A DNA stretch of 64,000 nt, from NCBI RefSeq assembly GCF_016865445.1, contig NZ_AP024412.1, positions 682,001 through 746,000 on the forward strand. Reading direction: 5' to 3'. A model generated the notes under the pieces. The model worked only from the letters and a program-made list of their open reading frames with translations, was not told where the DNA came from and did no database searches. Both the position numbers and the translations under genes were made by a program. Positions 26,167 to 55,131 of this stretch are shown one piece after another (the first letter of the stretch is position 1; every line of letters starts with the position of its first letter). This DNA comes from Mariniplasma anaerobium (GTDB lineage: Bacteria > Bacillota_I > Bacilli_A > Acholeplasmatales > Acholeplasmataceae).

Positions 26167-26170
26167 ATAT

Positions 26171-26210
26171 TGAACTGCTCCCCGTTTAGTAGACATTAAA
26201 TAAAAAGGGG
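26171..26210. repeat. Left terminal inverted repeat of the IS
   Basis: It starts TGAACTG. The inner block 26188-26210 matches the right end at 19 of 22 positions. Confidence 0.85.
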
Positions 26211-26297
26211 CTTAGTGGTTTTAAGGGGTTTGAAATTCGAGGAAAATTTTAATTTAGGCACTTTCATACTACAATTAAGTATGGAGGTGTTTTTATT

Positions 26298-26582
26298 ATG
26301 GCAAAAAAAGGACAAATTTTTAAGAAGTATCCTTTAGATTTGAAGCTAAAGATTGTGAAAGAAAAAATTGATGTTGGAAAGAGTTATAAATTTCTTTCAG
26401 ATCATTATAAAATTAGCGAAGGAACCATAACGACTTGGGTATATATGTATCGTAGAGATGGGGGACTTGATATCAAACAAAAAGGCAGACCAGTAGAGCT
26501 AGATATAGACTACAAAGAACGCTATGAAATCTTAAAAAAATTCCAGGACTTCTTGGGGGTGGTCGAACAAAAGAAAAAATAA
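26298..26582 (+). CDS. IS3-family transposase OrfA
   Basis: This 94-residue protein contains a helix-turn-helix (YPLDLKLKIVKE... YKISEGTITTWVYMYR) as in IS3-family OrfA proteins, which bind the IS ends. It stops at TAA directly after a run of six A (26574-26579). The -1 frame is open from there into OrfB, so an OrfAB fusion made by programmed frameshifting is expected. GGAGG lies 13 nt before the ATG. Confidence 0.9.
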   Translation: MAKKGQIFKKYPLDLKLKIVKEKIDVGKSYKFLSDHYKISEGTITTWVYMYRRDGGLDIKQKGRPVELDIDYKERYEILKKFQDFLGVVEQKKK

Positions 26583-26623
26583 TTTTTATTGATAGATACC
26601 GAAAAACATATAACCTTAGATCA

Positions 26624-27367
26624 ATGTGCGAGGTATTAGGTGTAGGACTTAAAAACTATTATAAATATAGAGGTGTATTGGATCCTGACTATAAAGTATA
26701 TCGTCTAGTCAAAGAGGTATTTGATAGCAGCAAGAAAACATATGGATATAGACGCATAGCTGATGAAATACGCGATTGTAAAGGTATTATCATCAACTAT
26801 AAGAAAGTCCTTAGAATCATGCGCAAGTATGGAATTCAAGCTCAATACATTAGAAATATCAAACCTAATTACAGTAAGAAATGCATAGAAGAAAATATCA
26901 AGGATGATTTATTAAAAAGAAAGTTTAATCAAAGAGGATGGGTCACAGATATAACATACCTTATCTTTGGAAGTAAAAGGGCATATTTATCTACGATATT
27001 GGATTTAAAAACTAGAAAAGTAGTCTCACATATCATCAGTTCTAGAAATGATAACAAGCTCGTTATGGATACATTAAATCTAGCAATCAGTAAAACAAAA
27101 GATCTAAACGGACTCATTATCCATTCAGATCAAGGGTCTCCGTATGTTTCAACAGAATATAGAATTATCTGCGAATCTAATGGTATACTCATTTCCATGT
27201 CAAGAAGGGGTACACCATTAGACAACGCAGTGATTGAGAGTTTCCATTCAATACTAAAAAAAGAAACTCTGTACAATAATGATATCAAAAATTTAAAAGA
27301 ATATATACAATTAGTGGAAGAATGGATAGAATTTTATAACACCACAAGGAGAAAACAAAAAAAGTAG
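26624..27367 (+). CDS. IS3-family transposase OrfB (DDE integrase core)
   Basis: From the ATG this is 247 residues, but the frame is open back to the A-run at 26574, so the true product is probably the OrfAB fusion. It shows TYGYRRIADEI (HTH_21-like), then the rve core: DITYLIFGSKRAYLS (first Asp), IIHSDQGSPYVS (second Asp) and GTPLDNAVIESFHSILKKE (Glu). The C-terminus ends at FYNTTRRKQKK, about 15-20 residues short of the usual YN..R....L..P..Y tail, with the stop at the edge of the right inverted repeat. Activity therefore needs testing. Confidence 0.9.
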   Translation: MCEVLGVGLKNYYKYRGVLDPDYKVYRLVKEVFDSSKKTYGYRRIADEIRDCKGIIINYKKVLRIMRKYGIQAQYIRNIKPNYSKKCIEENIKDDLLKRKFNQRGWVTDITYLIFGSKRAYLSTILDLKTRKVVSHIISSRNDNKLVMDTLNLAISKTKDLNGLIIHSDQGSPYVSTEYRIICESNGILISMSRRGTPLDNAVIESFHSILKKETLYNNDIKNLKEYIQLVEEWIEFYNTTRRKQKK

Positions 27368-27397
27368 ACCCTTTTTTATTAGTGTCTACTTTTTGGG
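27359..27397 (+). terminator. Hairpin inside the IS right end, probable transposase terminator
   Basis: AAAAAGTAGAC (27359-27369) pairs perfectly with GTCTACTTTTT (27384-27394). It overlaps the orfB stop codon and the inverted repeat. Confidence 0.6.
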
Positions 27398-27407
27398 GTC
27401 CACTTCA
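27369..27407. repeat. Right terminal inverted repeat of the IS
   Basis: It reads inward TGAAGTGGACCCC then AGTAGACACTAA. The outermost bases are TCA, matching the TGA of the left end. Confidence 0.85.
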
Positions 27408-27411
27408 TATC

Positions 27412-27423
27412 GCTTCTTTTTTT
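27412..27423 (+). terminator. Right arm and T tail of the split GH30 terminator
   Basis: GCTTCTTTTTTT is the partner of 26157-26166; it is no longer adjacent because of the IS. Confidence 0.7.
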
Positions 27424-27453
27424 GTAAGCGTTTCACTTTTTTTAATAAAAGAC

Positions 27454-27481
27454 TTTACTTTTAAATAAAATCTATTATAAT
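27454..27481 (+). promoter_or_regulatory. Promoter of the GH94 phosphorylase operon
   Basis: TTTACT and TATAAT are separated by 16 bp. The start of transcription is expected near 27488, right at the operator. Confidence 0.65.
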
Positions 27482-27489
27482 GGAATTAG

Positions 27490-27501
27490 GAAACCGATTT
27501 C
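27490..27501. promoter_or_regulatory. LacI-type operator at the GH94 promoter
   Basis: GAAACCGATTTC is identical to the site at 32262-32273 and fits the LacI-family pattern with a central CG. It lies just after the -10 box, where a bound repressor would block transcription. The LacI gene at 31138 is in this same operon, so autoregulation is likely. Confidence 0.75.
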
Positions 27502-27514
27502 TTGAGGTGGCAAA

Positions 27515-30022
27515 ATGATTATTAAAAAGCATATAGAAAGCAATAAAAACACTGGATATTATTTTCCTATGTTTAACTTAAAAGGGTTTAGATCATCAAT
27601 TACGCCCTTTTTTGGTGGAGATGTAAAGACTGATCTTCATCATTATGCAACAGAACCTACATCAGAATTGGGTTTATTTGAACATACGCAATCGAGAAAT
27701 GTCATTTTTGATATTGATCATAATTTATATTTTTTAAATGGACAAACACAATTACAACAAAATGATAGCATTGATTATGAAGTAGGACCTTTATATCAAA
27801 AAGTAAATAGACATAATAAACTTCATGATATATCAACAACTTCTTTTGTTTTATTAAATGAAATGGCAGAAGTACATGAAATAGTATATACAAATAAAAC
27901 AAAAAAAGACCAGCATATAAAAGTTACTACTGCAACACCGATGTATGCAAGAAGTGTTGATAATTTGCATGATCATCGACATGTAACATCTTTATTAAAC
28001 ACAATTGATGTTTTAAATGGTGCAATTAAAGTTAAACCGACACTTTCATTTGATGAAAGAGGTCATCAAGTTAACGATACGACTTACTATTTTATTGCGT
28101 CAAGTGATGATATGCATATTAAAGGCTACATTCCTACTCAAGAAGATTATTTAAACCAGGGTTCATTCCATTTTCCAAAAGGCTTGGATAAATTAAAAGA
28201 ACAAGGATATCACATAGATGGTTATGAAGCAATGGGCGGCATAGCATTTGATGGCATTATAATTAAACCAAATGAATCTGTAACATTTTATATGGCTATA
28301 GCTATTCAAAAAGAAGATATGGATATAAATCAGTTTAGAAAAACATATTTATCAACATCAGGGTTTCATAAGGCTTTAGATGAAGTAATAGCTTTTTTTG
28401 AAACATATTTAAGTCAATTGAAGTTTGAAATCGATACTGATGAAACATCAAAACAATTAAATTGGGTATCATTACAACCATTACTTAGAAGATATTATGG
28501 GAATTCATTCATGCCACATCATGATTATGGTAAAGGTGGACGCGGATGGCGTGATTTATGGCAAGATTTACTCGCATTAATTATGATGAATGATGATAGT
28601 GTTTATGAACTATTGTATAGTAATTTCCAAGGCGTTAGAATTGATGGTTCTAATGCGACAATTATTGGAGATCAACCAGGTGAATTTAAGGCGGATCGTA
28701 ATCAAATAACAAGAGTTTGGTCTGATCATGGAGTTTGGCCATTAATCACAACTAAACTTTACATTGATGAAACAGGGGATGTTGACTTTTTATTGAAAGA
28801 ACAATCATATTTTTCTGATCAGTTCACACATTATACTAGACAAATTAAAAAGATTAATGAACAAAATATATTAATTGATGAAAATAACAAAATATATAAG
28901 GGCTCAATTTTAGAACATCTACTTATTGAAAACCTAGTGGGTTTTCATAATATCGGAAAACATGGATTCACTAGACTAGAAGATGCTGATTGGAATGATG
29001 GATTAGATATGGCACATGAAAATGGTGAAACGATTGCGTTTACACACATGTATGCTGAAAATTTAAGTATTTTAGCGCATTTGCTAAAATCTACAAATTT
29101 AAAATCTATAAATTTATTAGACGATATCGAGGTTTTATTAACCAAAAACGCAAATTTACAAACTTATTTTGATAGAGTATCTCAATTTAAAGGCAACAAG
29201 GTATCTTTTAATATAAATTATCTTTTTGAAAGATTAATGAAACTATCAGAAGATAAGAAAAAATTTATTAATGATAATGCATATGAAGAAAATAAATATC
29301 AAAGTTATTATGATAAAAACGGAGAATTATTAGATGATAAAACTTCAATTGCTTTAACAGGTCAAGCAATGGCACTCATAGCACACACTCCAACTCAGGA
29401 ACAAGCTCAAAAAATAGCTTTTCACACAAAAGAAAAGCTTTTCGATACAAGTGTTGGTGGATATCATTTAAATACAAATTATCAAAAAGTATTAACTAAT
29501 ATGGGTAGAGCATTTGGATTTGCATATAATCATAAAGAAAATGGAGCAGTATTCGCTCATATGGCTATGATGTATGCTTATGGGTTATATGAATATAATT
29601 TAGTTGATGAAGCAAGACAAGCAACATTTCAACTATTAAAGCAAGCTCAAAAAGAAGACTCTCAAGTATTAGCTGGCATACCTGAATATTTTTCTGATAA
29701 AGGTCACGGAAAGTATTCATATCTTACTGGATCAGCTAGTTGGTTATTACTATTACTTAGAAAACAAATATTTGGACTCGAATTTAATTTAGGAAAATTA
29801 ACACTTAATCCGAAATTGACAAAAGAAGATTTCATAAATCAAAGTGCATCAATAGTAACAAATATATTTGGTAAAACAGTCAAAATAACATATCACAATC
29901 CGAAAAATTTAGATTATGGTCAATATAAAATTAAAGATATATTTATAAATGATAAAGAAGTACACATGCCTATTACAAAAATTAATGGAAGTATAGAGGT
30001 GCATCTAGATGAAATTGTATGA
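27515..30022 (+). CDS. GH94-family phosphorylase, probably laminaribiose phosphorylase
   Basis: This 835-residue cytoplasmic protein has the GH94 architecture: an N-terminal beta-sandwich with FNLKGFRSSITPFFGGDV, then an (alpha/alpha)6 barrel with GGRGWRDLWQDLLALI and the DWND motif (492-495) that holds the general-acid Asp. GH94 enzymes split beta-glucosides with phosphate to give a sugar-1-phosphate, saving ATP. A GH94 laminaribiose phosphorylase is known from Acholeplasma laidlawii. The neighbouring GH16 genes support a beta-1,3 substrate here. Cellobiose remains possible. The gene overlaps the cupin gene by 14 nt. Confidence 0.85.
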   Translation: MIIKKHIESNKNTGYYFPMFNLKGFRSSITPFFGGDVKTDLHHYATEPTSELGLFEHTQSRNVIFDIDHNLYFLNGQTQLQQNDSIDYEVGPLYQKVNRHNKLHDISTTSFVLLNEMAEVHEIVYTNKTKKDQHIKVTTATPMYARSVDNLHDHRHVTSLLNTIDVLNGAIKVKPTLSFDERGHQVNDTTYYFIASSDDMHIKGYIPTQEDYLNQGSFHFPKGLDKLKEQGYHIDGYEAMGGIAFDGIIIKPNESVTFYMAIAIQKEDMDINQFRKTYLSTSGFHKALDEVIAFFETYLSQLKFEIDTDETSKQLNWVSLQPLLRRYYGNSFMPHHDYGKGGRGWRDLWQDLLALIMMNDDSVYELLYSNFQGVRIDGSNATIIGDQPGEFKADRNQITRVWSDHGVWPLITTKLYIDETGDVDFLLKEQSYFSDQFTHYTRQIKKINEQNILIDENNKIYKGSILEHLLIENLVGFHNIGKHGFTRLEDADWNDGLDMAHENGETIAFTHMYAENLSILAHLLKSTNLKSINLLDDIEVLLTKNANLQTYFDRVSQFKGNKVSFNINYLFERLMKLSEDKKKFINDNAYEENKYQSYYDKNGELLDDKTSIALTGQAMALIAHTPTQEQAQKIAFHTKEKLFDTSVGGYHLNTNYQKVLTNMGRAFGFAYNHKENGAVFAHMAMMYAYGLYEYNLVDEARQATFQLLKQAQKEDSQVLAGIPEYFSDKGHGKYSYLTGSASWLLLLLRKQIFGLEFNLGKLTLNPKLTKEDFINQSASIVTNIFGKTVKITYHNPKNLDYGQYKIKDIFINDKEVHMPITKINGSIEVHLDEIV

Positions 30023-30416
30023 TACTTATGATTTATTAGGAATTGGATATCAAAAAATATTTAACTTTCAATCCTGGAGAATTGCTAAATTAAATTATAT
30101 TAAAGAACTTGACATCCAAAATCTTAATTTTATTGAATGTCATCATGAAACTGATGAAATATTCGTATTAATTCAAGGAAAATGTGATATGTTTATATTA
30201 AAAGAAGATTCCCCAAAAACATTTGAACACTTTTCCTTAGAAACACAAAAAATATATCGTATACCTAAAGGTGTTTATCACGCTCATGCTCTTTCTAAAG
30301 ACGCACAGATACTTATTATTGAAGAAGACGATACATGTGATGGTAATTCTCATCGTGTCTATCTAAACGAGCAAGAAATTAAAAACTTACAATTATCAAC
30401 ATGTGGAGGTAATTGA
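30009..30416 (+). CDS. Small cupin-domain protein
   Basis: This 135-residue single cupin has FIECHHETDEIFVLIQGKCDMF (first cupin motif with His/His/Glu) and IPKGVYHAHAL (second motif with His), so a metal site is likely preserved. It is translationally coupled between the phosphorylase and the GH16 gene. Possible roles are a sugar epimerase/isomerase or a ligand-binding accessory. The function is not known. Confidence 0.82.
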   Translation: MKLYDTYDLLGIGYQKIFNFQSWRIAKLNYIKELDIQNLNFIECHHETDEIFVLIQGKCDMFILKEDSPKTFEHFSLETQKIYRIPKGVYHAHALSKDAQILIIEEDDTCDGNSHRVYLNEQEIKNLQLSTCGGN

Positions 30417-31141
30417 TGAATTACAAACTAGTATGGCAAGATTTATTTGATCAAGATAAATTAGATTTAAACACATGGAATATTGTAACGGGTGGCAATG
30501 GATTTGGAAATAATGAAGATCAATATTATACAAGTCAAGAAAAGAATCTATTTATTAAAGATCAAACATTGCATATAGTTGCATATAAAGAAGCGTATAA
30601 GCAAAGAAATTACACTTCAGCTAAAATCTCTACAAAAAATAAAAAGCTTATTAAATATGGACGCATTGATGTATTAGCTCATGTACCTAGAGGTATGGGG
30701 ACTTGGCCAGCAATTTGGTTACTAGGTGAAAATATTAATGAAAGTGGTTGGCCATTATGCGGTGAAATAGATATGATGGAACATGTAGGAAATCACGAAG
30801 GATTCTTTCATTATTCTCTTCACTCAAAGACATTTAATCATAACAAACGCAATCAACCTACATACATTTATGAAGATCAAAAATTGCTTGATGGATTTCA
30901 TTTATATCGTCTTGATTGGGAAGAAGATAAAATCTCATTTTATGTAGATGACAAGCATATGGCGACATTTAAAAAACCTCAAGATGCAACCGTCGAACAA
31001 TGGCCATTTGATCAATCTTTCTATTTTATTTTAAATCTTGCGATTGGTGGTAGTTGGGGAGGATATATTGATGATTCAATGTTTCCTGTTGCATTTAAGA
31101 TTAAGCACGTTAAAGTATACGAAAGAAGTGATGAAAATTGA
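30416..31141 (+). CDS. Cytoplasmic GH16 beta-1,3-glucanase (laminarinase-like)
   Basis: This 241-residue GH16 enzyme has TWPAIWLLG and the catalytic motif GEIDMMEH (Glu117 nucleophile, Asp119, Glu122 acid/base); the extra Met is the beta-bulge type of laminarinases. It has no signal peptide, so it should act on imported oligosaccharides. The ATG at 30416 overlaps the cupin stop, with GGAGGT 5 nt upstream. The secreted relative at 50650 shares the same core. Confidence 0.9.
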   Translation: MNYKLVWQDLFDQDKLDLNTWNIVTGGNGFGNNEDQYYTSQEKNLFIKDQTLHIVAYKEAYKQRNYTSAKISTKNKKLIKYGRIDVLAHVPRGMGTWPAIWLLGENINESGWPLCGEIDMMEHVGNHEGFFHYSLHSKTFNHNKRNQPTYIYEDQKLLDGFHLYRLDWEEDKISFYVDDKHMATFKKPQDATVEQWPFDQSFYFILNLAIGGSWGGYIDDSMFPVAFKIKHVKVYERSDEN

Positions 31142-32160
31142 ACAAGAAAAGAACAATTTATAATATCGCAAAAGAACTAGATTTAGCTCCTGGAACGATT
31201 TCAAAAGTAATTAATAATACTGGAAATGTTTCTGATTCAACTAGAAAAAGAGTACTAGCGTATATAAAAAAAGTAGGATATGTACCTAATAATTCAGCTA
31301 GAATGCTTAAGTCTAAAAGAACTTATACAGTAGGTATTGTATTTACTGAAGAATCTGATGTAGGATTAGAACATTCATTCTTTTCTAGTATTTTGCAACA
31401 TTTTAAAACATTTGTTGAAGTACAAGGATATGAACTTAGTTTTATTGTTAAAAAACTAGGACAACATGAATTATCATATTACGAATGGTGTATGAATAAA
31501 CGTGTAGATGGCGTTTATATCGTTGTTGGTAACTATGATGATAAGGGGTTATATGAACTTGTTGAAAGTTCTATACCAGCCGTATCAACAGATATGTTAC
31601 TTCCAAAACTTCATACTGTAATCAGCGATAATGATCAAGGCGTTAAACTGATATTTGATTATATAAAAGAAGAGTTGAAGCTTAAAAATATTGCATACAT
31701 ATCTGGACCTAAATCTTCTAAAGCCTTTAATGAACGTGTAGATGCTTATCATAAATACACACAAGAATACCAGTTGAATCAAACATCAGAAGTCATCTAC
31801 GCAGATAGCTTTGGATTTACAAGTGGATATAATGCCGTATACAAGTTATTAAAAAAACCTGAACAAAAACCTGAACTTATTATGGTTGCTAGTGATGATA
31901 TTGCACTAGGGGTTTTAAAAGGTTTATCTGATATGCATATTAAAGTACCAGAGGACATCCAAGTTGTTGGCTTTGATGATATTGCATTTTCTAAGCATTT
32001 TACCCCATCGCTTACAACAATAAGACAAGATAGAAAATTGTTAGGCCAAACCGCAGCTAGACTTTTAATTGAACTTATGGACAACCCAAACAAGGATGTT
32101 TCTGAGATTGTAAAATTACCAGTTGAATTAGTCATCAGAGAGTCTACAAGAAAAAAATAA
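31138..32160 (+). CDS. LacI-family transcriptional regulator of the beta-glucan locus
   Basis: This 340-residue protein has an N-terminal LacI HTH (TIYNIAKELDLAPGTISKVINNTGNVSDSTRKRV) and hinge (NNSARMLKS), then a periplasmic-binding-like sensor (about 60-335) with DIQVVGFDDIAFSKHFTPSLTTIRQ. It starts with a TTG overlapping the stop of the GH16 gene. Its likely targets are the GAAACCGATTTC-type operators at 27490 and 32172-32273. The ligand is probably a laminari-oligosaccharide or glucose derivative (inference). Confidence 0.92.
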   Translation: MNKKRTIYNIAKELDLAPGTISKVINNTGNVSDSTRKRVLAYIKKVGYVPNNSARMLKSKRTYTVGIVFTEESDVGLEHSFFSSILQHFKTFVEVQGYELSFIVKKLGQHELSYYEWCMNKRVDGVYIVVGNYDDKGLYELVESSIPAVSTDMLLPKLHTVISDNDQGVKLIFDYIKEELKLKNIAYISGPKSSKAFNERVDAYHKYTQEYQLNQTSEVIYADSFGFTSGYNAVYKLLKKPEQKPELIMVASDDIALGVLKGLSDMHIKVPEDIQVVGFDDIAFSKHFTPSLTTIRQDRKLLGQTAARLLIELMDNPNKDVSEIVKLPVELVIRESTRKK

Positions 32161-32169
32161 ATTTTTATA

Positions 32170-32198
32170 TTGAAAACGGTTTCTTTATATGTTATGAT
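32170..32198 (+). promoter_or_regulatory. Promoter of the large phosphorylase-transport operon
   Basis: TTGAAA and TATGAT are spaced by exactly 17 bp. The predicted start is near 32205. Operator copies lie inside the promoter and downstream. Confidence 0.7.
32172..32183. promoter_or_regulatory. LacI-type operator 1 (inside promoter)
   Basis: GAAAACGGTTTC overlaps the -35 box and spacer. Confidence 0.7.
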
Positions 32199-32216
32199 AT
32201 AAATATAATGAAAAAA

Positions 32217-32228
32217 GAAATCGGTTTC
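32217..32228. promoter_or_regulatory. LacI-type operator 2
   Basis: GAAATCGGTTTC lies 45 bp from operator 1, twice the 22.5-bp spacing of the following sites. Confidence 0.72.
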
Positions 32229-32238
32229 CTAAAAAGGC

Positions 32239-32250
32239 GGAACCGGTCTC
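32239..32250. promoter_or_regulatory. LacI-type operator 3 (diverged)
   Basis: GGAACCGGTCTC lies 22 bp after operator 2. It has the central CCGG but weaker arms. Confidence 0.6.
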
Positions 32251-32261
32251 CTTTAAAAAAA

Positions 32262-32273
32262 GAAACCGATTTC
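32262..32273. promoter_or_regulatory. LacI-type operator 4
   Basis: GAAACCGATTTC lies 23 bp after operator 3 and is identical to the site at 27490-27501. Confidence 0.75.
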
Positions 32274-32291
32274 CTTAAAAAGGAGAGAAAT

Positions 32292-35200
32292 ATGGAAAAT
32301 TATCATTTCAAACTTAATAATTATCAAAAGCAAAAACCATTTTCTAGCTTTTTAAGTGGGGTCTCTGGATTAAAAGGTATCCCTTTATGGGCTTTTTATG
32401 TCAATAGAGGTCAACTTATCTCATCTTTTGGTATTAGAAATAAAGATGGCGCAATCATGGAGTTCTTTCCAGCTAATGCAGCTTATCATTATGTATCTAG
32501 AATTGGATTTAGAACATTCATAAAGATTGATAACAAAGTTTATGAATGTTTTAAAGAGCAAGGTGAATATCAAACATTAGATGTTTATCAAGATCGAGTA
32601 TCTATAACACAAAACTTAGAAGAAGAAAAAATTTCAATAAAGATTACCTATTTCACACTTCCTAATGAAAGAATGGCAGCTTTAGTTAGAAAAGTTGAAA
32701 TCATAAATCACAGTAATGATGAAAGACAAATTGAAATTGTTGATGGATTGGCACAGATTTTACCAACAGGTGTTGATTATGGAGGATATAAAGCCATTTC
32801 AAATTTATTACAAAGTTGGATGCAAACCAAAAACAAAGAAGAGTATGTGTTTTATACTTTAAGGGGTTCAACCGGAGATGAAGCAGAAGTAAGTGAAATC
32901 AGCGAAGGTAACTTCGTGCACTCAAGATCGAGTATAAAACCCACTTACATTTACGATTATAAGGCTTTATTTTTAGAAGATACATCATTAGAAATACCAT
33001 ATGCTTTTATAAATGGTGATATTTTAGAACAAAAACAAACACACGTTAATCAAGTACCAGCAGCAATGGTGCATTACGCTTTTAAATTAAATAAAGAATT
33101 TAAATTTGTATCCATGTTTGGATATAGTGAAACAGAAGATAAATTAGATGAATTTGTTAAAAAGACTAATTTGAACTATTTTTTAAATAAAGAATCTGAA
33201 AATAAACAAATTCATGATGAAATAACGAGCACGATTAAAATGAAAACTAATTTTCCGATTTATGATGCATACTTAAAACAATGTTATCTCGATAATGTAT
33301 TACGCGGTGGTTATCCAATACAAATTGAAGCTAAAGATAAAGATGCTACGTATTATATATATTCAAGAAAACACGGTGATTTAGAGAGAGATTATAATTT
33401 CTTTAATTTAGAGCCAGCTTATTATTCTCAAGGCAATGGTAATTTCAGAGATGTACTTCAAAATAGAAGAAATGACTTAGTATTCTTTCCAAAAATCAAA
33501 GCATTTAATGTATTGATGTTTACATCTTTCATTCAAGATGATGGATATAATCCATTATCTATTGAGGGCATTGAGTTTATATATGAAGGTGATATCAATA
33601 ATCTAGACACAGAACTTATTAAATTTATACAAAATCCATTCACACCTGGAAAACTTCTTATGGTGATTGAAGATCTAAAACTAGATGAGTCATTGTTTAA
33701 AACAATACTTGCTCAAAGTAAAGTCATTTATAAAGCATCATTTGGTGAAGGGTATTGGGAAGATCACTTCACATATCTTCTAGATTTGATTGAAGGTTTT
33801 GAATCTATATATCCAGATTTTGTAGAAGATTTATTATTTAATCAAAAAGTCTCTATTTATCAATCAAATGCTTATGTTGTTCCAAGAAATCAAAAATATG
33901 TAATGACACATAAAAAAACGATTAGACAATTTGGGTCTGTAAAGCATTTAGATGAAATGGATCATTGGTTAAAAGAAAATAAAAAAATTATTGAAATTCC
34001 TGTAATATCAAAATTATTGACACTTGTTTTAAATAAATATGCACATTTAGATCCAAAGGGCATTGGACTTTCATATGAAGGGAATAAACCAGGATGGAAT
34101 GATGCGTGTAATGGTATACCAGGATTATTTGGATCAGGAGTATCTGAAACATTTGAACTTTTAAAGTTAGTTTCTTATTTAAGAAAAAACATTGAAAAAT
34201 ATGGCGATTATGAATTAGATATTTTATCTGACACAAAAGAATTTATAAATAAATTAAATCTGATCAATGAGCAAGATGATTTCAGGCATTGGGATCAAAG
34301 AATGAATGCTCTTGAAGCTTATCGAAAAAATAGACTGACTAGAAACACAAATATTTCTAAAGTGAATTCAAAAGAAATATTTGAGATTACATCTAAAATA
34401 GAAACAGTTTTAGAAAAAGCAGTACATAAAGCAAAAGCGTTAAGTGATATCATTCCAACATATTTAACATATGAAGCAACTTCATATGATGAAATTGTAG
34501 ATGATAACAATCAACAAGTTATTGGAGATTATGGCCTACCTTTAGTTAATGTTCACTCTTTTGAAATGAGAGCATTACCGAGTTTCTTAGAAGGACCTGC
34601 AAGATATCTAAAAAATTTAGCAAAACCAGAAGAAGCAAAATCTATTTATGATAACGTTAAACAATCAGGTTTATATGATAAGAAACATAAATTTTATCAA
34701 ACAAGTGTTTCCTTAGAAGAAGAATCATTTGAAATTGGTAGATTAAAAGCATTTACACCTGGATGGTTAGAGAGAGAATCGAATTTCTTACACATGACGT
34801 ATAAATATTTACTTGGATTATTAAAGTCAGGTTTATATGATACATTCTATGAAGAAATTAAAACAAATTACACATGTTTTATGGATCCTGAAGTTTATGG
34901 AAGGTCACCTATAGAAAATTCGTCATTTATTGTGACTTCTTCAAATCCTGATCCAAAAAAACATGGTCAAGGATTTGTCTCAAGATTATCTGGATCTACA
35001 GCAGAAATGTTATCAATGTTTAGTTACATGTTTTATGGTAAAAATTTATTTAAATATTTAAATGGACAATTGATCTTTGAATTAAATCCAAAATTAAATA
35101 AGGAATTTTTTATAGATCATAAGATTGAAACCACACTTTTTAAGGATATTAAGTTGACTTATCATAATGAATTATTAGTTAACACTTATGATGAAGATGC

Positions 35201-35345
35201 TTATATCGAAAAGATAGTATTAACAACAAAAGATCAAGTTATAAAATTTGATCAATCATTTATTGAAGAAAAATGGGCAAAAGATATTCGTAAGAAAAAT
35301 GTCTTAAAAATAGATGTCTATTATAATAAGGAGGAAAATAAATGA
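32292..35345 (+). CDS. Large beta-glucan phosphorylase, GH149/GH161-like (1,3-beta-oligoglucan phosphorylase)
   Basis: This 1017-residue cytoplasmic protein has the two-part GH94-clan layout. A beta-rich N-terminal region begins around GLKGIPLWAFYVNRGQLISSFGI. The long (alpha/alpha)6 barrel carries GNKPGWNDACNGIPGLFGSG, where Asp604 of WND is the expected general acid. The length and the PGWNDA-NG motif fit 1,3-beta-oligoglucan phosphorylases (GH149 or GH161), which I cannot tell apart by eye. The start is the ATG at 32292 with AAGGAG 7 nt upstream. The in-frame ATG at 32208 would translate the operator array and is rejected. Confidence 0.8.
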   Translation: MENYHFKLNNYQKQKPFSSFLSGVSGLKGIPLWAFYVNRGQLISSFGIRNKDGAIMEFFPANAAYHYVSRIGFRTFIKIDNKVYECFKEQGEYQTLDVYQDRVSITQNLEEEKISIKITYFTLPNERMAALVRKVEIINHSNDERQIEIVDGLAQILPTGVDYGGYKAISNLLQSWMQTKNKEEYVFYTLRGSTGDEAEVSEISEGNFVHSRSSIKPTYIYDYKALFLEDTSLEIPYAFINGDILEQKQTHVNQVPAAMVHYAFKLNKEFKFVSMFGYSETEDKLDEFVKKTNLNYFLNKESENKQIHDEITSTIKMKTNFPIYDAYLKQCYLDNVLRGGYPIQIEAKDKDATYYIYSRKHGDLERDYNFFNLEPAYYSQGNGNFRDVLQNRRNDLVFFPKIKAFNVLMFTSFIQDDGYNPLSIEGIEFIYEGDINNLDTELIKFIQNPFTPGKLLMVIEDLKLDESLFKTILAQSKVIYKASFGEGYWEDHFTYLLDLIEGFESIYPDFVEDLLFNQKVSIYQSNAYVVPRNQKYVMTHKKTIRQFGSVKHLDEMDHWLKENKKIIEIPVISKLLTLVLNKYAHLDPKGIGLSYEGNKPGWNDACNGIPGLFGSGVSETFELLKLVSYLRKNIEKYGDYELDILSDTKEFINKLNLINEQDDFRHWDQRMNALEAYRKNRLTRNTNISKVNSKEIFEITSKIETVLEKAVHKAKALSDIIPTYLTYEATSYDEIVDDNNQQVIGDYGLPLVNVHSFEMRALPSFLEGPARYLKNLAKPEEAKSIYDNVKQSGLYDKKHKFYQTSVSLEEESFEIGRLKAFTPGWLERESNFLHMTYKYLLGLLKSGLYDTFYEEIKTNYTCFMDPEVYGRSPIENSSFIVTSSNPDPKKHGQGFVSRLSGSTAEMLSMFSYMFYGKNLFKYLNGQLIFELNPKLNKEFFIDHKIETTLFKDIKLTYHNELLVNTYDEDAYIEKIVLTTKDQVIKFDQSFIEEKWAKDIRKKNVLKIDVYYNKEENK

Positions 35346-54028: not shown

Positions 54029-55042
54029 ATGAGTATGAAAAATAAAATTAATATTTATGAATTAGCAAAAGCAACTGGATTTTCTGCATCTACCGTTTCT
54101 AAAGCACTAAATCATAGAGGTAGAATTAGTGAAGAGACAAGTACTAAGATATTAAAAAAAGCTGCGGAATTAAATTATGTAGCTTCTTATCATGCAAAAA
54201 CACTTAGTTTAAATAAATCTTGGATCATTGGAATTATTTATTCAGATAACTTAGGAATTGGGTTTTCTCATCCCCACTTTTCTATGATTTTAGAAAGTTT
54301 TAAACAAGAAGTAGAAAAAGCAGGATATGAAATTACATTTATTAATAGAAATATGGGTAATGTAGAAATGACTTACTTAGAATTTTGTCAATATAGAAAA
54401 GTTGAAGGCGTATTTATTGTTAACTTCTATAGTTTCTCAAAACAAATACCAGAATTAGTTGAAAGTGGGATTCCAATTGTGTCATCAGATGCAGGAGATT
54501 TAAATATTCCGACAATTACATCTGATGATCTGCAAGGTGGACGACTTGCATCTGAATATTTAATTTCTCTTGGACATCAAAAACGTGTGTATCATATTGC
54601 TGGACCACTTTATACAATATCTGGTCAAAATAGATATAAAGGGTTTTTAGAAGTAATGAAAGAACATGGTGTTGAGTATAAAGTCTTTGAAGCTGTAAAT
54701 TTTGGGTTTAAAGATGGATATGATCAAGCAATCAAAATTATCGAGGAAGCACACTTACCATCTGCAATTTTTATCGCAGGTGATTGGATGGCTTTAGGAG
54801 CTATTAAAGCCTTTAAAGATCATGGAATAAATGTTCCAGAAGATATCTCAATTATTGGATATGATGATTTAGAATTTTTGAAATATTCTAGCCCAGCCTT
54901 AACGACCATAGCACAAAATAAACAGGAGATTGGACGGACTGCTGCACATAATTTAATTAATCAAATCAACGGTTTAGATACTCATTCTTCTAAAATCAGT
55001 ATAGAAGTAGTTGAAAGAGATACATGTAAAAAAATTAATTAA
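54029..55042 (+). CDS. LacI-family transcriptional regulator of the lipoprotein pair
   Basis: This 337-residue protein has a LacI HTH (INIYELAKATGFSASTVSKALNHRGRISEETSTKI) and a sugar-sensing domain with DISIIGYDDLEFLKYSSPALTTIAQ. It is close in length and layout to the 31138 regulator. It probably controls the next operon, whose promoter has a LacI-type site exactly at the start of transcription. GAGG lies 7 nt before the ATG. Confidence 0.92.
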   Translation: MSMKNKINIYELAKATGFSASTVSKALNHRGRISEETSTKILKKAAELNYVASYHAKTLSLNKSWIIGIIYSDNLGIGFSHPHFSMILESFKQEVEKAGYEITFINRNMGNVEMTYLEFCQYRKVEGVFIVNFYSFSKQIPELVESGIPIVSSDAGDLNIPTITSDDLQGGRLASEYLISLGHQKRVYHIAGPLYTISGQNRYKGFLEVMKEHGVEYKVFEAVNFGFKDGYDQAIKIIEEAHLPSAIFIAGDWMALGAIKAFKDHGINVPEDISIIGYDDLEFLKYSSPALTTIAQNKQEIGRTAAHNLINQINGLDTHSSKISIEVVERDTCKKIN

Positions 55043-55067: not shown

Positions 55068-55084
55068 TTTATCTTTATGAGTCC

Positions 55085-55113
55085 TTGACATTACAGAAGA
55101 TATAGTTTAAAAT
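55085..55113 (+). promoter_or_regulatory. Strong promoter of the lipoprotein pair
   Basis: A perfect -35 TTGACA and TAAAAT are spaced by 17 bp. Transcription should start near 55120. Confidence 0.82.
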
Positions 55114-55117
55114 TGTG

Positions 55118-55131
55118 GTAAAGCGGTTTCG
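55118..55131. promoter_or_regulatory. LacI-type operator at the transcription start
   Basis: GTAAAGCGGTTTCG has the central GCGG core and a TTTC arm like the sites at 27490 and 32172. It overlaps the predicted start, a position suited to repression by the upstream LacI protein. Confidence 0.65.

Follow-up and report, generated by a model that had tools for sequence, protein, structure and literature searches.

The promoter of the GH161 operon in the window (the whole 64,000-nucleotide stretch of DNA analysed here) probably stands under two layers of LacI-family control, in which the regulator encoded at 31138 would act on O2, O4 and a single operator at the neighbouring promoter P1, CcpA would act on O1, and duplicated units could be bound cooperatively. 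As a whole, the array is an ordinary case of an already familiar type of regulation, with a cre-like site and three dedicated operator copies (two of them good) that were recently multiplied. The features at this promoter, P2, are as follows.

31138..32160 (+), LacI-family regulator of 340 aa with Pfam PF00356 and PF13377, within the P1 operon
32170..32198 (+), promoter P2 of the GH161 operon: -35 TTGAAA (32170-32175), 17-bp spacer and extended -10 TG-T-TATGAT (32193-32198); kept in relatives
32171..32184 (+), O1: cre-like TGAAAACGGTTTCT that overlaps both the -35 and the spacer; outside the genus, relatives have TGNAANCGNWWNCA there
32217..32228 (+), O2: GAAATCGGTTTC, putative operator for the local LacI, centred at about +18; conserved, and the ancestral one of the downstream operators
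32239..32250 (+), O3: GGAACCGGTCTC, degenerate copy of the operator, centred at about +40; operator score 6.1
32262..32273 (+), O4: GAAACCGATTTC, perfect operator copy just 5' of the Shine-Dalgarno, centre about +63; score 26.2
32211..32281 (+), 22-23-bp unit (operator plus linker CTTAAAAAGG) repeated in tandem, 3.2 copies; gave rise to O3 and O4
32293..35345 (+), GH161 beta-1,3-oligoglucan phosphorylase; ATG at 32293 with the Shine-Dalgarno AAGGAG just 5'

The four sites are present where the sequence-only reading had placed them, starting at 32172 (GAAAACGGTTTC), 32217 (GAAATCGGTTTC), 32239 (GGAACCGGTCTC) and 32262 (GAAACCGATTTC), with centre spacings of 45, 22 and 23 bp by direct reading. 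Three of the four (32172, 32217 and 32262) match GAAANCGNTTTC exactly and the one at 32239 has two mismatches. When the intergenic region (32158-32292, 135 bp, with the lacI-family gene 31138-32160 on one side and the phosphorylase gene on the other) was subjected to 20,000 dinucleotide-preserving shuffles, one exact site appeared in 16 of them and two or more in none, and four sites at up to two mismatches were likewise never obtained (0 of 20,000). Independently, Tandem Repeats Finder reports 3.2 copies of a 22-bp unit at 32211-32281. Across the 1.9-Mb genome there are six exact GAAANCGNTTTC sites, four of which lie at the phosphorolysis locus, three in the array and one at 27490; this last one, before the GH94 gene, was missing from the earlier list. 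The operator cluster upstream of GH161 is real, and a chance origin is ruled out. An even palindrome with a central CG is the rule for LacI-family operators (PMC4052901), and O2, O4 and the P1 operator all read GAAAYCGRTTTC, which supports the operator type that had been proposed.

The proposed placement of the array within and just downstream of a promoter also holds, with one site over the -35 and spacer and the others past the start. Mapped Acholeplasma promoters carry an EXT TRTG element and start transcription about 6 nt past the -10 (PMC5138195), a layout that P2 matches; transcription is thus expected to start near 32205, which puts the centres of O1 to O4 at about -28, +18, +40 and +63. 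The array belongs to the 5' UTR and does not encode protein, judging from the GH161 match (PDB GH161 chains, E 4e-196), which opens at residue 31 of the long frame, from the orthologs in relatives, whose start codon is the equivalent of ATG 32293, and from the Shine-Dalgarno that precedes this ATG. The frame that runs open from 32208 into the phosphorylase does exist, and the warning that it could be mistaken for a 28-residue N-terminal extension was well placed, as the gene starts at 32293. That the phosphorylase nevertheless begins at ATG 32208, and the array is coding, has next to no chance of being right: the continuous frame speaks for it, but 32208 has no Shine-Dalgarno whereas 32293 is preceded by a good one, the solved GH161 chains and the orthologs begin at the 32293 position, and the transcript is expected to start only about 3 nt away from ATG 32208.

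We also considered that the repeats act in RNA, through a 5' UTR hairpin in which O2 pairs with O4 and controls translation or termination, given that the two are exact reverse complements and are paired in the minimum-energy fold. This is highly improbable and we rejected it, since the fold (z-score -1.5) is no better than that of shuffles, 15 of 200 of which fold at least as well, and Rfam returns no family at its threshold; moreover, the single copy of close relatives cannot form the hairpin and the same palindrome stands alone at P1. A minus-strand 'terminator' called at 32271-32241 was discarded as well, being the palindromes read as a hairpin (one found against 0.9 expected by chance).

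The notion of four equivalent copies fails once the sites are scored with matrices for the local operator and for cre that were built from the relatives' sites alone, those of the cre matrix having been picked with the cre pattern: O1 falls into the cre class, O2 and O4 into the local-operator class, and O3 is weak. Local-operator scores are 26.2 for O2, O4 and the P1 operator, 11.9 for O1 and 6.1 for O3, and cre scores are 14.4 for O1 (the best in the whole window), 7.3 for O2, O4 and P1, and -4.1 for O3. In 1 Mb of simulated sequence the operator score of 26.2 did not occur (0 occurrences), whereas random sequence reaches the score of O1 about 4 times and that of O3 about 30 times per Mb. 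The same division runs through about 25 orthologous Acholeplasmataceae promoters, where a cre-like site lies upstream and an operator-like one downstream with hardly any mixing, and where the O1-O2 distance is 42-46 bp in nearly all promoters that keep O1 (spacing exceptions include L133 and L110); in some orthologs, L113 and L116 among them, a promoter of this kind is missing between lacI and GH161. A second LacI paralog of one genome (L131 in G040, 55% identical) shows the same cre-like plus operator layout, 44 bp apart, which suggests that the regulatory region was duplicated along with the LacI gene.

In the sequence-only reading, all four sites including O1 were operators of one local LacI that formed a single phased cooperative array, and we regard this as rather unlikely. 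The GAAA-CG-TTTC frame is common to all four, and in this genus O1 shares its right half, CGGTTTC, with the local operator and has an operator score of 11.9, which lies above background; outside the genus, however, the O1 equivalents score -12 to 7 as operators and 9-21 as cre, and are flanked by TG..CA, with the CA end of a cre, and the 42-46-bp distance to O2 varies over nearly half a helical turn. By eye, nearly all relatives outside the genus fit TGNAANCGNWWNCA, which O1 matches here at 13 of 14 positions, the last cre base having been lost in this genus. In this genus O1 has drifted toward the local operator and may be shared by CcpA and the local LacI, for which an intermediate affinity is possible.

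Under the two-layer reading, O1 is most likely read by CcpA. An ortholog of this regulator occurs in 18 of 18 genomes tested (PDB match E 5e-72), and CcpA has been reported in Acholeplasma, with a regulon of three operons in A. laidlawii (PMC5138195). The broad cre pattern TGWAANCGNWWNCA is uninformative in this genome (12 matches against 7 for its control), and we therefore used a tighter palindromic form, TGWAARCGNTTWCA, which is enriched (48 against 10 for the reversed control). Several TGWAARCGNTTWCA copies precede genes for sugar-binding lipoproteins and other catabolic-looking genes, as identified by eye. Many Acholeplasmataceae have a conserved, cre-like TGAAAACGATTACA ahead of an elongation-factor-like GTPase gene, downstream of its -10 and upstream of its Shine-Dalgarno (L068:1500, with the equivalent site in L074, L076, L077, L079, L090, L092 and L099).

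The second promoter of the locus, P1, precedes the operon that contains the regulator gene, and its features are the following.

27423..27435 (+), cre-like TGTAAGCGTTTCA upstream of P1, one base shorter than canonical; cre identity putative
27490..27501 (+), P1 operator: GAAACCGATTTC, centre about +8, directly 3' of the -10 TATAAT (27476-27481) of the GH94 gene
27515..30022 (+), GH94 laminaribiose phosphorylase, whose gene opens the P1 operon; PDB 6ggy, E 1.9e-180

The P1 transcript is expected to start near 27488. The P1 operator is conserved in place in most relatives that have the locus, and the TGTAAGCGTTTCA element is retained by the congeners and by several relatives beyond them. G006 and G019 have a perfect local-LacI operator some 67 bp 5' of the P1 operator, roughly where TGTAAGCGTTTCA stands here, as if the two kinds of element could replace each other. 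An IS3-type insertion sequence occupies 26171-27407 between a GH30 gene and P1 (frames 26298-26582 and 26624-27367), with imperfect terminal repeats TGAA.TG..CCCC and a likely 3-bp target duplication TAT (26168-26170 / 27408-27410), and it ends about 15 bp before TGTAAGCGTTTCA. The neighbourhood also includes a GH16 gene, and a 135-residue protein encoded at 30009-30416 in the P1 operon has no Pfam match and is cupin-like by eye.

Orthologs of 31138 occur across Acholeplasmatales, and the operator tracks this gene from genome to genome: exact GAAAYCGRTTTC is found in 18 of 18 genomes with an ortholog (56 sites, 41 of them within 10 kb of it) and in three of 20 relatives without a close ortholog, one copy each. 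The reversed-pattern control gives 37 matches in the first set and 56, against 3, in the second; as 56 is not far above 37, the case for GAAAYCGRTTTC rests on location and co-occurrence and not on raw number. As to location, nearly every relative carries one operator at a fixed place past the -10 of the GH94 operon and another a short way past the lacI-GH161 promoter. This co-occurrence supports the earlier naming of the 31138 protein as the likely binder, and we propose it as the predicted reader of O2, O4 and P1 and, weakly, of O3. As its gene sits in the P1 operon, it is probably autoregulated. Searching plasmids for 31138 yielded distant LacI proteins alone, all below 60% identity (best listed, 32%).

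The window encodes a second LacI-family protein, at 54029, whose family membership and an operator-like TAAAGCGGTTTC (55119) just downstream of its gene, after promoter-like sequence, might make it a binder of the array. We give this very little credence and rejected it: relatives that keep the operators have no 54029 ortholog, their best matches being 31138 orthologs or paralogs at 34-42%, and the candidate site of 54029 scores 1.9 for the operator of the array. The region at 55084-55130, with a TTGACA promoter-like sequence and then TAAAGCGGTTTC, may instead hold an operator of the 54029 protein itself; the GTG start called at 55115 overlaps TAAAGCGGTTTC and is probably too early.

Among the closest relatives, G001, G002 and G004 have O1 and O2 alone, G003 has one extra operator 22 bp further on, and the genome of the window (G000) has two, of which the middle copy, O3, has decayed. 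The ancestral layout, as read from these comparisons, is O1 plus O2, with O3 and O4 as recent tandem duplicates of the 22-23-bp unit. Because a tree of LacI, GH161 and GH94 joins G000 and G003 as a sister group with full support, one duplication in their common ancestor and a second in the genome of the window would be the simplest history. The full array is hence not a conserved device, close relatives having O1 and O2 alone. This is a clear instance of sister species that differ in operator number through tandem duplication, and as the downstream operator is available in one, two or three copies, repression strength and cooperativity can be compared directly.

It is conceivable, if doubtful, that O3 and O4 are neutral by-products of tandem duplication and that O2 (and O1) alone matter, given the decay of O3, the recent origin of both copies and the lack of either in G001, G002 and G004. 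Against this, O4 is a perfect 12-mer and stands immediately 5' of the Shine-Dalgarno, the place taken by O2 in relatives, and other lineages (G043, G058, G015 and G007) repeatedly have a third operator close to it. Such third operators lie at 33, 45, 54-56 (past an intervening cre-like site) or 73 bp, often just before the Shine-Dalgarno, and one lineage has a cre-like site 21 bp after O2. A cre-like TGTAAGCGTTTNNA stands 21-22 bp downstream of O2 in G043, G058 and L121, with a close variant in G050. That the slot 21-22 bp past O2 is reusable, and filled either by an extra local-LacI operator (G000 and G003) or by cre-like TGTAAGCGTTTNNA, strikes us as improbable; if true, the local repressor and CcpA could bind side by side and cooperate, and operator duplication and cre acquisition would be interchangeable ways to tighten one promoter.

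The claim that dimers bound to the array would face the same side of the DNA stands only in part: the sites are roughly in line for a helical repeat near 11-11.2 bp, but not at 10.5 bp per turn, where the angles are 34 degrees for O2-O3, 69 for O3-O4, 103 for O2-O4 and -154 for O1-O4. Because the alignment depends on the helical repeat, the sequence cannot support that claim. Looping, also suggested earlier, requires the C-terminal tetramerisation helix of LacI. The 31138 protein aligns to residues 3-329 of the 360 of LacI and ends where this helix would begin, so that looping appears unlikely and cooperation between neighbouring dimers the likelier option. A survey of LacI-family regulons found intersite peaks at 13, 22 and 32 bp, read the 22-bp peak as cooperative dimers, and counted groups of three sites at 116 operons and of four at 5 (PMC4052901); adjacent-dimer cooperativity at 22 bp is plausible by analogy with this known behaviour of the family. 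Given how degenerate O3 is, the array may function as two independent sites separated by 45 bp.

From the computed sites, motif classes, regulator co-occurrence, duplication history and gene start, we infer binding, inducer, direction of regulation and cooperativity in the two-layer scheme as follows. The 31138 repressor would bind O2, O4 and, more weakly, O3, all downstream of the transcription start, together with the single P1 operator at 27490, and would block promoter escape or elongation until released by a beta-1,3-gluco-oligosaccharide or a product. CcpA would shut P2 through the cre-like O1 in the -35 and spacer when better sugars are present, and neighbouring dimers, about two turns apart on the duplicated units, could bind cooperatively.

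Paired operators 21-22 bp apart are known for RafR of Enterobacteriales and ScrR of Burkholderiales (Ravcheev et al. 2014, PMC4052901); our literature search returned no paper on cooperativity at RafR operators. As in those systems, the sites are even palindromes with a central CG, a local regulator adjoins a sugar operon, and neighbouring sites are 22 and 23 bp apart here and 22 bp apart in G003, in keeping with the 21-22-bp pairs. Unlike them, the 22-bp neighbours are lineage-specific duplicates and not obligatory pairs (G001, G002, G004 and most other orthologs have a single downstream operator), the middle copy is degenerate, and a separate cre-like site stands at the -35. CcpA/cre control of Firmicutes is resembled in the CcpA ortholog of all 18 genomes and in an O1 that nearly fits cre and is placed over the -35, but the last cre base is lost at O1 in this genus, and CcpA binding here is predicted. 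Clusters of GH94, GH161 and GH16 genes for beta-1,3-glucan phosphorolysis have been described in Acholeplasma laidlawii and A. oculi (PMC6484121), and the locus described here likewise brings together a GH94 laminaribiose phosphorylase, GH161, GH16 and transporter genes. That work leaves regulation untreated (its text contains neither 'LacI' nor 'transcription'), and we found no described regulator for the GH94-GH161 genes of Acholeplasmataceae in the open literature searched. In contrast, we propose both a regulator and its operators, so that a predicted regulator and operator motif are now assigned to the GH94-GH161 genes for beta-1,3-glucan (laminarin-type) phosphorolysis in the wall-less Acholeplasmataceae.
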